The position numbers and the translations under genes are program-made. Shown one piece after another: positions 33,177 to 40,213 of a stretch of 64,000 bases of DNA. Source of the stretch: Actinomycetes bacterium (lineage in GTDB: Bacteria; Actinomycetota; Acidimicrobiia; Acidimicrobiales; Acidimicrobiaceae); contig JAKAQL010000008.1 of assembly GCA_021822605.1 (NCBI GenBank), positions 1-64,000 on the forward strand, given 5' to 3'. Numbering within the stretch: position 1 is the first letter of the stretch; each line of letters starts with the position of its first letter. The notes under the pieces are model-generated. The model was given only the letters and a program-made list of their open reading frames with translations, was not told the origin of the DNA and searched no databases.

Positions 33177-34172
33177 GTGGAGGGAGTTCATGGGCGGCTT
33201 GCGTCCGTTGGGGTGGTTGGTCTAGGCCATCTTGGGGCGTCGCTCGCCGCGGCGTTGACGAATGATGTCACGGTCGTCGGCTTTGATTCGAATCCGGTGT
33301 CGATGTCCATTGTTGTGCAACGTTTTGGGATCAATACGGCTGCATCATTGCTCGATCTTGTCTGCCAGAGTGAATTGATCGTGCTTGCAGTGCCGACCCC
33401 TGCGGTTCGAGGGGTTCGCGATCAGCTGGAGACTTTGGCCGATTTAACAGGGTCGCGTCCGGTCGTCTGTGATATCGCGTCAGTGAAGAATGAGCTAGCA
33501 CTCGATGACGATACTCCATCATCGTTGTCCTACATCAGCCTACACCCAATGGCAGGACGTGAGGGAAACGGTGCTGAAAGTGCCGACCCGTCGATATTTG
33601 CGAACGCGAACTGGGCAGTCGTGCTGACTGGCCAGGAGGAACCCCAGGCGCTAGCCTCGGCGTTGCTGGTTCCTCTTACCTTGGGCAACGGGGTCATACC
33701 GATCCTTCTGGCCGATCATGACCGTGCAATCGCCATGGTGTCTACTTTGCCGCACGTGAGCGCGGTTGCCCTCGGTCGCCTCGTTGGTCAGGCAGCTGAC
33801 CGCGTACTGTTGCGTAGATTGGCGGCAGGATCGATCCGTGATAGTGTTCGTGTTGCGCGCACCGACCCGGCACGAATTGTGGAGATGCTTTACCCGAATC
33901 GCGCGCAGCTCATCGGTGCCATCGATGCTCTGATTGGAGAGTTGCAGGCTTGTCTGGTTCACTTGGAAGACGAGCGTTGGCTGCTCGCTTGGACCCGTGA
34001 TGGTCATGACGGTGCGTGCTCACTCGATGACAGAGACGGAAGACGGTCCTCAAGTCACGTTCCCCAGGCGCTCCTGGTGGATGAGCTTATCCGGCTTGCA
34101 GGAGACGGTGCCATGATCGTCGGCCTTGGCTGGGAAGGGGATGACTTTCGTCTCGACCTAGTCGGCGGCTAG
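33177..34172 (+). CDS. tyrA: prephenate dehydrogenase family protein
   Basis: This 331-residue protein from a GTG start has a Rossmann start (VGVVGLGHLGASLAAALT) with an acidic residue after strand 2 (VVGFDSNPVS). The family motif YISLHPMAGREGNGAESAD is present, followed by a helical dimerisation domain. It oxidises prephenate (or arogenate) for tyrosine synthesis. The last 60 residues beyond the dimer domain are unusual and unassigned. It is 10 bases after pheA, so the two form a Phe/Tyr operon, and its 3' end overlaps the convergent GGDEF-EAL gene by 15 bases. Confidence 0.9.
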   Translation: MEGVHGRLASVGVVGLGHLGASLAAALTNDVTVVGFDSNPVSMSIVVQRFGINTAASLLDLVCQSELIVLAVPTPAVRGVRDQLETLADLTGSRPVVCDIASVKNELALDDDTPSSLSYISLHPMAGREGNGAESADPSIFANANWAVVLTGQEEPQALASALLVPLTLGNGVIPILLADHDRAIAMVSTLPHVSAVALGRLVGQAADRVLLRRLAAGSIRDSVRVARTDPARIVEMLYPNRAQLIGAIDALIGELQACLVHLEDERWLLAWTRDGHDGACSLDDRDGRRSSSHVPQALLVDELIRLAGDGAMIVGLGWEGDDFRLDLVGG

Positions 34173-36104
34173 TCGAGTCGATATTCGTCGTCGTAGTTCG
34201 AGGCCCAGACGACAAAATTCCCGTGCAGCCTCGGCGTCGTTGGTGTTGAGCACGCGCTGAGCGAGCTGGTGCTGGGCCTGATGGAGCGCGATGAGGTCGG
34301 GATCCTCTAAGCTACTGGCGATTGCGCAGCGTGGTTCGGCTAACGGCCTCTTGTGTCCGCTGGCGGCAAGTGAGATGATCGCGCGTTCCCACCTGAATCC
34401 CTGTGCAGCTGCAACGACGGATGGGTATGACTGCATGGTGGGGAGGATGAGTGAGTCGGGAAGGGCAAGGATCTCGGTGATCGGCAGTGGACGACTCAGC
34501 GCGTAACCCTGACCAAGTTGCGCCCCTAGGGCATGGAGCACTGGTAGCATCCGTGGATCCTCAATACCCTCGATCACCAGATCGACCTCGATCAGTTCGC
34601 TGAGATCGATCGCGACGGTCATCAGGGGTAAGCCAACGTTGAGCAGATCGATGGGCTCTGAAAACGCCCGATCCAGTTTGATCTCGTCAAAGGGGAAGCT
34701 CATGATTCGCGAAAGGGATGCGTAGCCCGTTCCAAAGTCATCAAGAGCTATCTGGTGCCCAGCCTTCTTAAGAAGCGCCAGCGGACCGTAGGCGAGCGAG
34801 ACGAGATCCTGGTTTTCGGTGATCTCGATTCTCAGCTGATGGGGTGAGATCCCTCGTTGGCGCCAGACGGTAATGATCTCACGCGCGTAGCTCTCGTCCG
34901 AGATGAGATCCGGCTCAATGTTGATCGCAACTGGCTTTGTTAAGCCATATTGCTCGACATCGTCGGCCACCTGGGCGAGTACCGTTTCGAAGAGTCTCCG
35001 CCGTTCCTCCCGTGCAAGCGTATCAATAAATTCCTCGGGACTGATCAGGCCGGATGACACCCTGAGGCGAGCCAGGGCTTCATATTGTGTGATCCGTCCA
35101 TTGCCCAGATCGACGATTGGCTGGTAACGAACCTCGAGATTATCACCTTCGATGGAGAGGAGGGAGTGGACGCCGGCCGTCGGGGGAGACTCGGGTGCGG
35201 CGTCAGACATCGGCAGGGTGACCAAGTGGAGCCCAGGCTCTGCACCGGTGACGAGGGCCTGTGAAAGTGCTGTCTCCGCCATACCGAGCAGCAGCATCGG
35301 GTCAGCATTTTCTCGCCACGAGATAGCAAGTCCTGCATACCAGGCTGGTGGTTCTTCACCCGGGGGTTGAAGTCGTGTCGCGCCAATCGCATTCAGCTCC
35401 CGTTCGATGATCGAGACCACTTCGTTACGACCGTCGGCCGTCTCAACCAAGAGCGCAAATGTCGTATCGCCGAGGCGTGCAACGGTGTCGGTTGAACGGG
35501 TGAGGGAACCGAGTTGCCCCGCTAGCTCTACGAGAAGACGGTCACGGTCGCGGGGGTCGGCCTCAAGGTTGTGGTCAATGGAGGTCAAGGCGTAGACGTC
35601 CAGGAGGGCGAGCGCGACTTGCGTGTGAGCACGATCGGCTCGCAGAAGACTCGCCGTCAAGGCATCGATGAATCCACGCCGATTGACGAGACCGGTCAAG
35701 GCATCATGATGGCTGAGTGCGAGGGCAGATCGTAGCTCTACTCGGTGTCGTCGGTCTAGGGTGTCCATCGCACGCGCCTGGAGACGTTGGCGTTGTTGAT
35801 GAACCATGTCAGGTTCGAGGTCTTCGCGATGCCGCATCAGCGTCACTGCAAGCGAATCGATGAGTGCGAGGACCACGGAAGGAGGGTAGCCCAACCGTTG
35901 GAGCGTGATGGCAGCCAGCTCTGCACTCTTACGGCTTGCCCTGGCATCCGCAAGGGCTGGTGCTAGAGCGAGCACCAGCGGTACGAGGAGATCACGGGTG
36001 AGCAACTGGTCCTGATTGTCGACGCCGGTGACGATTGCGGAGAGAACCTCATCGACCACCGCGGGATCGCTCAACCATGACCAAGTCGGATAGGAATGAT
36101 ACAT
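34158..36104 (-). CDS. GGDEF-EAL protein, probable c-di-GMP phosphodiesterase
   Basis: This 648-residue soluble protein has an unassigned helical N-terminus (residues 1-135), a degenerate GGDEF domain (HHDALTGLVNRRGF, but RLGDTTFALL where GGDEF should be), and an intact EAL domain. Catalytic residues of EAL are visible: YEALARL, AINIEPD, LRIEITEN, ALDDFGTGYASL, IKLDR, VIEGIED and LGQGY. About 90 further residues follow EAL. It should therefore hydrolyse c-di-GMP, with the GGDEF part possibly regulatory. Orn, which removes the pGpG product, is encoded 12 kb away. Confidence 0.9.
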   Translation of the reverse strand: MYHSYPTWSWLSDPAVVDEVLSAIVTGVDNQDQLLTRDLLVPLVLALAPALADARASRKSAELAAITLQRLGYPPSVVLALIDSLAVTLMRHREDLEPDMVHQQRQRLQARAMDTLDRRHRVELRSALALSHHDALTGLVNRRGFIDALTASLLRADRAHTQVALALLDVYALTSIDHNLEADPRDRDRLLVELAGQLGSLTRSTDTVARLGDTTFALLVETADGRNEVVSIIERELNAIGATRLQPPGEEPPAWYAGLAISWRENADPMLLLGMAETALSQALVTGAEPGLHLVTLPMSDAAPESPPTAGVHSLLSIEGDNLEVRYQPIVDLGNGRITQYEALARLRVSSGLISPEEFIDTLAREERRRLFETVLAQVADDVEQYGLTKPVAINIEPDLISDESYAREIITVWRQRGISPHQLRIEITENQDLVSLAYGPLALLKKAGHQIALDDFGTGYASLSRIMSFPFDEIKLDRAFSEPIDLLNVGLPLMTVAIDLSELIEVDLVIEGIEDPRMLPVLHALGAQLGQGYALSRPLPITEILALPDSLILPTMQSYPSVVAAAQGFRWERAIISLAASGHKRPLAEPRCAIASSLEDPDLIALHQAQHQLAQRVLNTNDAEAAREFCRLGLELRRRISTRLAAD

Positions 36105-36363: not shown

Positions 36364-38040
36364 ATGATGATGGAATCGACTATGCAACAGGGTGCGCTCA
36401 CGGTGGCTGGCATATTGCGCTACGGATCGCAAGCCTTTCCTGATGCGGAGGTGTTCACCTACAACGGTGGTGATGACGTTGCCCGTGCTCGTTTTGCGGA
36501 GATCGCTGATCGGGCAGCTCGACTGGCAGGCGCCTTGGCCGGAATTGGAATCGAACCCTCCGACAGGGTGGGCACTTTCTGTTTTAACCATCAGCAACAC
36601 CTCGAGGCGTACCTCGGTATCCCCGCCATGGGGGCGGTGATTCACACGCTGAATCTCAGACTTTCACCCGATCAGCTTCAGTTTGTGATTGACGATGCAC
36701 AGGATCGGGCCATCATTGTCGATGGGATTGGATTGCCACTATTGGCGCAGGTGCTTGACGCCTGCCCCTGCGTGGAGACCATTATCGTGGTCGGGCCAGT
36801 TCTCGATGTTGCTGCCAGGAAGGCAGTGGCAGCACGGCGTCGCGTGGTAGATTATGAGGACTTTCTGGGAGGTGCAACGCCGCTGGCGGAGTGGCCGGAG
36901 CTCACCGAGACGGATGCGGCAATGATCTGTTACAGCTCAGGTACCACTGGTAGTCCAAAGGGCGTTGTCTATTCGCATCGCTCCACCTATCTCCACGCGA
37001 TCAGCGCGCTCCCGCTGTTTAGCCAACGCAGCTGGAATATTCTGGAGTCCAAGGGTGATGTTGCCCTTATTGTGGTTCCGATGTTTCATGCGGCAGCCTG
37101 GGGGTCTCCGTATGCCTGTTGGTTCACCGGATCAACCATGATTATGCCGGGGCGCTTTTTGCAGGCCGAACCGCTCGCCGCAATGATCGAGAGGTTCCGC
37201 CCGACCGTCTCCTCCGGGGTGCCTACTATCTGGAACGATCTGTTGCACTATTTGGAATCGCATCCAACGGACATCTCAAGCCTCCGCATGTTGACCTCTG
37301 GAGGGTCAGCGACACCCCGATCTCTGATTGAGGCGTATCTTGAGAGGTACAATATCCCTGTCGTCTCCGGGTGGGGCATGACGGAGACCTCCCCGATTTG
37401 CACCCTTGCGATTCCTCCCTCAGGTACGCCACGTGAACGCCTAGTTGACTATCTCGAGACGGCGGGCAAGGTTGTCCCCGGCGTAGAGTTGCGGATTGTG
37501 AATGATCAACAGCAGGCACAGCCCTGGGATGGCAAGGCGTTTGGGGAGATCGAGGTGCGCGGTCCCTGGATTACTGCAGGCTATTTGGGAGGGCGAGGAG
37601 TTGAAAACTTCGATCACGGATGGCTTCGAACTGGTGATATCGCTACCGTTGATCCACAAGGTTACGTTCGAATCATCGACCGTACAAAGGATGTGATCAA
37701 GTCCGGAGGGGAGTGGATCTCCTCCATTGAGCTTGAGAATGCCATCATGGCGCACCCCAAGGTAGCTGAGGCTGCGGTCATCGCAGTCCCGGATGATCGT
37801 TGGTTCGAGCGTCCGTTGGCTTTTGTGGTGGTAAAGCCAGGAGCGGATCTTGAGGTAGCCGAGCTTCGTGAGTTCCTGGCTGGTCGCGTCGCAAAGTGGT
37901 GGCTACCTGAGCGTTACTCCTTCGTTGAGGCTATTCCTCGCACATCGGTCGGGAAGTTTTACAAGAAGGCGTTACGTGACGGGTACCAGGAAGGCAACTA
38001 CGCGATCCATGAGGTCAGACGGACCCAAGGTCAGGAGTAG
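36364..38040 (+). CDS. long-chain fatty-acid-CoA ligase
   Basis: This 558-residue adenylate-forming enzyme has ICYSSGTTGSPKGVVYSHRS, VVSGWGMTETSPICTL, HGWLRTGDIATVDPQGYVRI and the C-terminal PRTSVGKFYKKALRDGY with the catalytic Lys. The segment around FHAAAWGSPYACWFTGS is typical of the FadD-like medium/long-chain group. It supplies acyl-CoA for beta-oxidation. Several in-frame ATGs at the start (36364, 36367, 36370, 36382) leave a few residues uncertain. It is two bases upstream of a small ORF and then acetoacetyl-CoA synthetase. Confidence 0.9.
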   Translation: MMMESTMQQGALTVAGILRYGSQAFPDAEVFTYNGGDDVARARFAEIADRAARLAGALAGIGIEPSDRVGTFCFNHQQHLEAYLGIPAMGAVIHTLNLRLSPDQLQFVIDDAQDRAIIVDGIGLPLLAQVLDACPCVETIIVVGPVLDVAARKAVAARRRVVDYEDFLGGATPLAEWPELTETDAAMICYSSGTTGSPKGVVYSHRSTYLHAISALPLFSQRSWNILESKGDVALIVVPMFHAAAWGSPYACWFTGSTMIMPGRFLQAEPLAAMIERFRPTVSSGVPTIWNDLLHYLESHPTDISSLRMLTSGGSATPRSLIEAYLERYNIPVVSGWGMTETSPICTLAIPPSGTPRERLVDYLETAGKVVPGVELRIVNDQQQAQPWDGKAFGEIEVRGPWITAGYLGGRGVENFDHGWLRTGDIATVDPQGYVRIIDRTKDVIKSGGEWISSIELENAIMAHPKVAEAAVIAVPDDRWFERPLAFVVVKPGADLEVAELREFLAGRVAKWWLPERYSFVEAIPRTSVGKFYKKALRDGYQEGNYAIHEVRRTQGQE

Positions 38041-38042
38041 CG

Positions 38043-38267
38043 ATGCCGGACCCGGATGAGAGTCGCGAGCGTATGCTGGAGAGCCTGCAGGTACTACTGT
38101 CCCAGCTCGACGACGTGAGCTTCTCACAGCTACTGAGGTATCGGCGTCTGGACCCAGCCAGAGTCAAGCAGGTACAGCAGGAGCTCGCCAAGGTGCGCCG
38201 TTCGCTGCTCAAGGCACAGCAGGTGCTGAGTCATCTGGACTTAGAGATTGAGGAGAATGAGCGATGA
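38043..38267 (+). CDS. small coiled-coil protein of unknown function
   Basis: This 74-residue, highly charged helical protein (SRERMLESLQVLLSQLDDVS, then RRLDPARVKQVQQELAKVRR and KAQQVLSHLDLEIEENER) has leucine spacing consistent with a coiled coil. It starts two bases after the ligase stop and its stop overlaps the next ATG (ATGA), so it is likely a real, coupled gene rather than chance. I recognise no family. It may be a partner or adaptor of one of the flanking CoA ligases; that is inference. Confidence 0.7.
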   Translation: MPDPDESRERMLESLQVLLSQLDDVSFSQLLRYRRLDPARVKQVQQELAKVRRSLLKAQQVLSHLDLEIEENER

Positions 38268-40213
38268 CCGAGGTTGGTGACATTCTCTGGGAACCCAGTG
38301 CTGGAGGACTGTCAGGACCTCTAGGAGCGTTTTTGGGCACCGAGGGCCCAAGGCTCGGGGTTAGTTCGAAAACCTATGATGACCTCTATCGAGCGAGCAT
38401 TACCAAGATCGGTCCGTTTTGGCGTTCCGTCGCACGTTTCTGTCAGCTCGCTGGCGATCTGGGTGATCGCGATTTGGTAGGAGAGCTACCCGATGCAGTG
38501 TTCTTCCCGGATGGTTTTATCAACTACGCCCAGGAAGCGTATCTCCGTTTTCACGACCCAGCGTGCATCGTCAAGGCTGACGAGTCCGGGATGCTAGAAC
38601 ACGTTGAGGCTCATGAGTTTTGGCGAGCTGTTGCCCAGCTTGCAGCGTCCCTTCAGGCGGCTGGCGTAGGAGTAGGCGACCGTGTCGCGGGCTATCTTCC
38701 CAATATCTATGAGGCGGTCGTTGGACTCTTTGCCACCGCGAGTATCGGTGCTATTTGGTCCTGCACGTCACCGGACTTTGGCGTCGGCGCGGTGGTGGAT
38801 CGTTTTCGCCAGATTGAACCAAAGGTCGTCTTGGCAGTCACCGAGTATCGCTATGGTGGTCGACTCATCGATCGGAGGACGACGCTTCACTCGATCCTTG
38901 ATGAGCTGCCAAGCGTTCGCACCGTTATCGTGGCGGGATCTGCGGACGGACTACCACGGGGGGCCTGGAGCCTACTCTCCTTTGATGAGGCGATCGAGGG
39001 AGAACGGCCATTGATTTTTGCTCGGGTGCCCTTTAACCATCCTTTGTGGGTTCTTTACTCCTCAGGGACGACGGGCGTTCCAAAGGCTATTGTCCACTCC
39101 CACGGTGGAATCGTGCTTGAACACAAGAAAGTGCTCGAGCTCCAGAACGAGATCGCCGATGGGAGCACGTTCTTTTGGTACTCTTCCACGGGTTGGATGA
39201 TGTGGAATTTTTTGATGGGCGGCCTGCTGGTTGGCGCTTCCATTGTGTTATACGATGGCTCCCCGGGCTACCCGGATCTCGGTCAGCTCTGGCGGCTGAT
39301 CGATAGGGCAGGTATCGATTTCTTCGGCGTCTCGGCTCCCTTTCTTCGCAGTTCGCAGGTTGGAGGGGTGGATCCACGATCACTGATCCATGGTACGTCG
39401 CTACGGGCCATCGGCTCGACCGGAGCGCCACTGACCATCGATGGTTTTGATTGGGTGTATCGTCACGTTCCGGGACCAGTACAGCTCATCTCAGCCTCTG
39501 GTGGCACGGATGTGTGTACCGCGTTTTTGGGTAGCTCTCCGATGCATCCAACGAGAGCCGGACTGATCGCGGCCCCCGCACTCGGTGTTGCGGTTGCAGC
39601 CTTTGACGAGTCAGGGACACCAGTGGTGGGAACGATGGGTGAGCTGGTTATCACCGAACCCATGCCGTCGATGCCGATCTGGTTCTGGAATGATGGGGAT
39701 CGAAGCCGGTATCATGAGGCGTATTTCGCCAAGTATCCTGGCGTCTGGAGACATGGCGACTGGGTCACTTTCTATGCTGATGGTTCGAGCGTGATCTACG
39801 GCCGTTCTGATTCAACCTTGAATCGTGGTGGTGTCCGCATGGGCACTGCCGAGTTCTACCGTGTGGTGGAGGCCATCAAAGGGGTACAAGAGGCCCTGGT
39901 GATCGACACCTCGGCTCTCGATCGAACTGGTGAGCTCATCCTTTTTCTTGTCCTGACCCCGACGGCGGTCGAGGAGGAGGTAGTCCAACAGGTACGAGCC
40001 GCGCTGCGAAGAGAGCTCTCTCCTCGACATGTTCCTGACCGGTTCTTCATGGTATCGGAGGTTCCGAAGACCTTGAATGGCAAAAAGTTGGAGGTTCCGA
40101 TTCGCCGACTTTTTCTCGGGGAGCAGCTCGCGGATGTCGCATCAAGTGACTCGGTGGCCAATCCTGGCGTCCTCAGCGAGTTTGAGGAGCTTGCTCGGCT
40201 AGCACGTCCCTGA
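38264..40213 (+). CDS. aacS: acetoacetyl-CoA synthetase
   Basis: This 649-residue adenylate-forming enzyme has the AACS-type acyl-activating core WVLYSSGTTGVPKAIVHSHG, the FFWYSSTGWMMWNFLMGGL block shared with acetyl-CoA synthetases, and the AACS segment MPIWFWNDGDRSRYHEAYF. The C-terminal PKTLNGKKLEVPIRRLF carries the catalytic Lys. It activates acetoacetate to acetoacetyl-CoA for use of ketone bodies or polyhydroxybutyrate turnover. It is coupled to the small coiled-coil ORF and shares an operon with the fatty-acid ligase. Confidence 0.93.
   Translation: MTEVGDILWEPSAGGLSGPLGAFLGTEGPRLGVSSKTYDDLYRASITKIGPFWRSVARFCQLAGDLGDRDLVGELPDAVFFPDGFINYAQEAYLRFHDPACIVKADESGMLEHVEAHEFWRAVAQLAASLQAAGVGVGDRVAGYLPNIYEAVVGLFATASIGAIWSCTSPDFGVGAVVDRFRQIEPKVVLAVTEYRYGGRLIDRRTTLHSILDELPSVRTVIVAGSADGLPRGAWSLLSFDEAIEGERPLIFARVPFNHPLWVLYSSGTTGVPKAIVHSHGGIVLEHKKVLELQNEIADGSTFFWYSSTGWMMWNFLMGGLLVGASIVLYDGSPGYPDLGQLWRLIDRAGIDFFGVSAPFLRSSQVGGVDPRSLIHGTSLRAIGSTGAPLTIDGFDWVYRHVPGPVQLISASGGTDVCTAFLGSSPMHPTRAGLIAAPALGVAVAAFDESGTPVVGTMGELVITEPMPSMPIWFWNDGDRSRYHEAYFAKYPGVWRHGDWVTFYADGSSVIYGRSDSTLNRGGVRMGTAEFYRVVEAIKGVQEALVIDTSALDRTGELILFLVLTPTAVEEEVVQQVRAALRRELSPRHVPDRFFMVSEVPKTLNGKKLEVPIRRLFLGEQLADVASSDSVANPGVLSEFEELARLARP

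Follow-up and report, generated by a model that had tools for sequence, protein, structure and literature searches.

A small gene between two CoA ligase genes belongs to an unnamed protein family of the Acidimicrobiia

A small coding gene at a CoA ligase locus

The window (the whole stretch of DNA that we analysed, 64,000 nucleotides) carries a 74-residue open reading frame, with an ATG start and a TGA stop, between the genes for two CoA ligases (Table 1). The stop codon of the upstream ligase (38038-38040) is separated from the small ORF by two bases, and the aacS start codon at 38264 forms a four-base ATGA overlap with the end of the small ORF at 38267, as the first-pass annotation of this DNA had read both junctions. 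The same annotation called the overlap fixed, which is only partly right. Across Ferrimicrobium the distance between ligase and small gene is -1, +2 or +5 bases, and the four-base overlap with aacS is present in 6/7 genomes; in the remaining one (G002, contig C26, locus L005) a TAA codon ends the small ORF one residue early, two bases before a GTG start of aacS, and the overlap is lost. The overlap measures 11 bases in Acidimicrobium ferrooxidans, and the corresponding junctions in genera other than these two have gaps of 98-131 bases or more. A scan for promoters and terminators returned no more matches than it did in shuffled sequence.

Table 1. Features at and around the small gene, in window coordinates.
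Feature	Position	Strand	Basis
GGDEF/EAL-like protein, its gene divergent to the ligase operon	34158..36104	-	read from translation only
AMP-forming acyl-CoA ligase, 558 aa, upstream neighbour	36364..38040	+	Pfam AMP-binding 6e-79; NCBIfam PRK06187 603 bits (cutoff 476)
AGGAG, Shine-Dalgarno-like, 5 nt 5' of the small-gene ATG, just before the ligase stop codon	38033..38037	+	read from sequence; putative function
Gene for a 74-aa predicted helical-hairpin protein, unnamed Acidimicrobiia-restricted family	38043..38267	+	homologues, coding test, predicted structure
AGGAG, Shine-Dalgarno-like, 8 nt 5' of the aacS ATG, within the small gene	38251..38255	+	read from sequence; putative function
Acetoacetate--CoA ligase (aacS), 649 aa, downstream neighbour	38264..40213	+	NCBIfam TIGR01217 674 bits (cutoff 521)

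The small ORF is a real, coding and conserved gene. It is present in all six sampled Ferrimicrobium genus mates, at 66-83% identity and between the same two ligases. Comparison of the window with these mates gave dN/dS values of 0.08-0.20, about 0.1, for the pairs with estimable dS, and counted 31-48 differences at third codon positions vs 5-13 at second positions. The check that had been proposed for this ORF, namely homologues together with a coding signal, thus came out on the side of a coding gene. A spurious ORF, or the decaying remnant of a gene caught between two others, might be suggested by the tail of the protein, which is short and fast-evolving in an alignment of 51 members; the low dN/dS and the retention of the gene across two orders make the probability of this reading negligible, and the coding test already refutes it.

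An unnamed family in two orders of the Acidimicrobiia

The single sequence, used as a query against 60 relatives, produced weak matches outside the genus, many of which were small ORFs adjoining an orthologous ligase, and a scan of public contigs with the window protein found two close relatives only. We aligned 16 of the matches from the single-sequence search into a profile (A1), which has matches in 264/298 genomes of the order, mostly one per genome. A second profile (A2), built from the 51-member alignment, was run on a phylum-wide sample, where it matched 29/30 genomes of the order and, outside Acidimicrobiia, gave one weak partial match within a long frame. Within the class, profile A2 also matched 39/41 genomes of a second order and 0/40 genomes of a third. 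The empty third order and the near-absence in other classes argue that the matches are not generic coiled-coil noise.

A reciprocal profile was assembled from 31 sequences, none of them from Acidimicrobiaceae, the family of the window, and none located beside a ligase. In the genome of the window, this ORF was all that it matched at E<=0.1 (E 3.1e-4, positions 5-63 of 67), and it recovered the equivalent ORF in 21 further Acidimicrobiaceae genomes. The gene is single-copy in the window's genome, where the window protein has one match at E<=10 and the reciprocal profile likewise one. The small protein is therefore a member of a usually single-copy family whose proteins have about 60-76 residues and which nearly all genomes of two Acidimicrobiia orders carry. 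Second, weaker profile matches occur in G028, G030 and G034 and, in the second order, for example in G731 and G746; these are possible paralogues.

No described family in Pfam, NCBIfam or PHROG covers the small protein, in line with the first-pass annotation, which knew of none. Scans of the three libraries yielded nothing above cut-off and, in PHROG, nothing consistent from member to member, only scattered sub-threshold coiled-coil matches; what a PDB sequence search with the family profile retrieved was limited to designed coiled coils and generic helices. As named candidates we considered the exonuclease VII small subunit, Pup, the acyl-CoA carboxylase epsilon subunit and chorismate mutase, none of which gained profile support above threshold. 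Our literature search found no paper on this small protein. The closest published kind are the conserved signature proteins of Acidimicrobiia catalogued by Hu, Cha and Gao in 2018 (PMC5962788), which are likewise lineage-restricted and unassigned in function, the small ones having 63, 71 and 99 residues. The A. ferrooxidans orthologue has 67 or 60 residues depending on which GTG is taken as the start, and that list, compared by length, has no entry of the expected length. An unnamed family present in about nine tenths of the genomes of an order, and lacking a model in the libraries checked, can serve as a marker of the lineage, and it offers functional studies a defined target in a class that has received little study.

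Genomic context and the link to the ligases

The position of the gene, between two ligases and tightly joined to both, had led the first-pass annotation to propose a partner or regulator of these enzymes. A dedicated partner of the acyl-CoA ligase and/or AacS would be co-translated with its enzyme, bind it and tune its activity or assembly. The overlap seen in most Ferrimicrobium is what such a partner would lead one to expect, as is the arrangement in Acidimicrobiaceae as a whole, where a ligase lies close upstream in 27/30 genomes and aacS downstream in 20/30 (both neighbours in 17, the ligase only in 10, aacS only in 3). Outside Acidimicrobiaceae we examined 72 genomes of the order, after removal of one duplicate. 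A ligase is found upstream in ten of them, which belong to the families f23, f48 and f49, so that ligase linkage is a trait of four families including Acidimicrobiaceae, yet the small gene itself is near-universal in the order. Homologues sit in the same position in the genus mates, and mostly in other positions outside Acidimicrobiaceae.

The gene also persists where close homologues of the ligases are missing. Among 24 genomes carrying it, matches (E<=1e-100 for the ligases, E<=1e-30 for GlcF) were missing for the upstream ligase in 5, for aacS in 9 and for GlcF in 13. Two genomes (G044, G204) keep the small gene without matches to the ligase, aacS or GlcF, and a third (G115) keeps it without a match to either ligase. 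Three Acidimicrobiaceae members have aacS but no ligase beside the small gene; G009 is one of the three, and its ligase orthologue lies on another contig. In f23 the ligase adjoins the small gene, yet the two genomes tested lack aacS. The small gene is thus neither linked to a ligase wherever it occurs nor lost together with it. Retention without close homologues of either ligase is unlike the behaviour of a dedicated ligase subunit; we consider a dedicated partner of these enzymes unlikely, and the proposal of the first-pass annotation does not survive the wider comparison. It is very likely that the small protein is not ligase-specific; a core protein of the lineage is the more probable reading than a ligase partner. 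A tight gene overlap within a single genus can mislead: the ligase neighbour that looked fixed here is local, and the gene itself is conserved in two orders.

The commonest upstream neighbour is a different gene. Outside Acidimicrobiaceae, a glcF-like gene lies immediately upstream in 29 of the 72 genomes, and in the second order glcF precedes the small gene in nine of the ten best loci. Among the 72, a gltD gene takes this place in one genome by search, with a second gltD-like case by Pfam, and the remaining loci have other contexts, including divergent ClC channel genes. In G337, of the second order, the divergent neighbour encodes an M20 peptidase. On the downstream side, LOG and fbiC are common and point towards the small gene. 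The order in f23 is ligase, small gene, LOG, fbiC, which joins the ligase context to the glcF/LOG-fbiC context and supports orthology by position. The glcF arrangement may be ancestral, being commoner and found in both orders.

With glcD further upstream, this neighbourhood raises a second enzyme-linked reading, in which the small protein is an accessory of a glycolate/lactate-type FAD oxidase, GlcD-GlcE-GlcF, and was left behind other enzymes once the operon had been lost. The frequency and possible antiquity of the glcF neighbour fit such an origin. Against it, the small gene often stands alone behind a divergent gene, and it is kept in many genomes where GlcF had no match at E<=1e-30 (G037, G143, G108, G044, G159, G295, G204, G122, G239 and G337), and we give an oxidase accessory only a small chance of being right.

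Across the class (loci L031-L112 and L171-L202), a recurrent order has glcD-(E)-glcF in front of the small gene and, facing it on the other side, LOG, fbiC (FO synthase) and a transaldolase gene; the genes upstream are exchanged, and the convergent side is often kept.

Predicted structure and proposed role

AlphaFold2 predicts the window protein as an antiparallel hairpin of two helices (residues 4-31 and 38-64; mean pLDDT 92.4), which supports the coiled-coil character ascribed to it in the first-pass annotation, and a distant member was modelled with helices at 2-32 and 40-60 (mean pLDDT 84.9). The conserved core of the 51 members, L15, L18, L22 and L30 vs L48, A/V51, V55, A58 and L62, fits the predicted hairpin, whose helix 2 has an alanine-rich inner face. 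Ala58 is invariant, and L30, R53, K57, A58 and L62 are near-invariant, a pattern of a two-helix hairpin to which the window protein conforms. The outer positions 46, 50, 53 and 57 of helix 2 are lysine or arginine in 86, 92, 98 and 100% of members, respectively; in the window protein they read Q, K, R and K. Measured against shuffled columns, the acidic outer face of helix 1 has a moment with p 0.003, and the basic-face moment of helix 2 is marginal (p 0.09). The family is acidic overall (pI 4.4-5.4).

Foldseek searches of PDB with both models returned nothing at E<=0.001, the best E values being 1.3-2.0. Short helical hairpins such as the metallochaperone CooJ (6hk5) and the WXG100-type EsxOP (4gzr) appear among the matches with TM 0.65-0.69, and their E values of 3 or worse and identities of 17-18% indicate generic hairpin geometry only. 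The lack of a significant structural neighbour means that this comparison gives no independent support to an adaptor or to a nucleic-acid ligand.

Rop/Rom is an RNA-binding hairpin of two antiparallel helices with small interface residues, and the small protein resembles it in length class, in its predicted two-helix plan and in the small residues at the interface. A Rop-like protein would dimerize into a four-helix bundle and use the basic stripe to bind structured RNA. The size, the architecture and the conserved outer stripe speak for this, each resembling the general plan of Rop. However, Pfam gave no Rop match, neither sequence nor fold is detectably similar, the protein is acidic overall, and the small family sits in Acidimicrobiia chromosomes. 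We regard a Rop-like function as quite improbable.

The explanation that we favour, and hold to be moderately likely, is that the small protein is a member of a lineage-wide family, a hairpin adaptor in a common process, and that its site beside the ligases reflects local gene order. Such a protein would be a small soluble adaptor in a process that all members of the lineage share, and it would probably self-associate through the faces of the hairpin. The stripe around R53 and K57 could then bind an acidic partner, either a protein helix or a nucleic acid; we propose this mechanism, with the basic stripe as the binding face, only tentatively. Translation may be coupled to that of the two CoA ligases at this locus, with a function that would not be specific to them. 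A ligase role restricted to Acidimicrobiaceae is possible, because the link to the ligases is strong in that family, and the small protein may touch a ligase there; such a contact would not be the reason why the gene is retained.

A more specific variant would make the family a near-universal, Acidimicrobiia-specific hairpin whose basic stripe contacts a core macromolecule (RNA polymerase, ribosome, nucleoid or RNA) and which acts as an essential or near-essential regulator, an idea to which we assign a low probability.

In some Acidimicrobiaceae (L034, L045), a quinone-oxidoreductase-like gene, which we take to be possibly an AcuI/YhdH relative, lies 3' of the cluster of ligase, small gene and, in part, aacS, and might bear on the substrate of the ligase.
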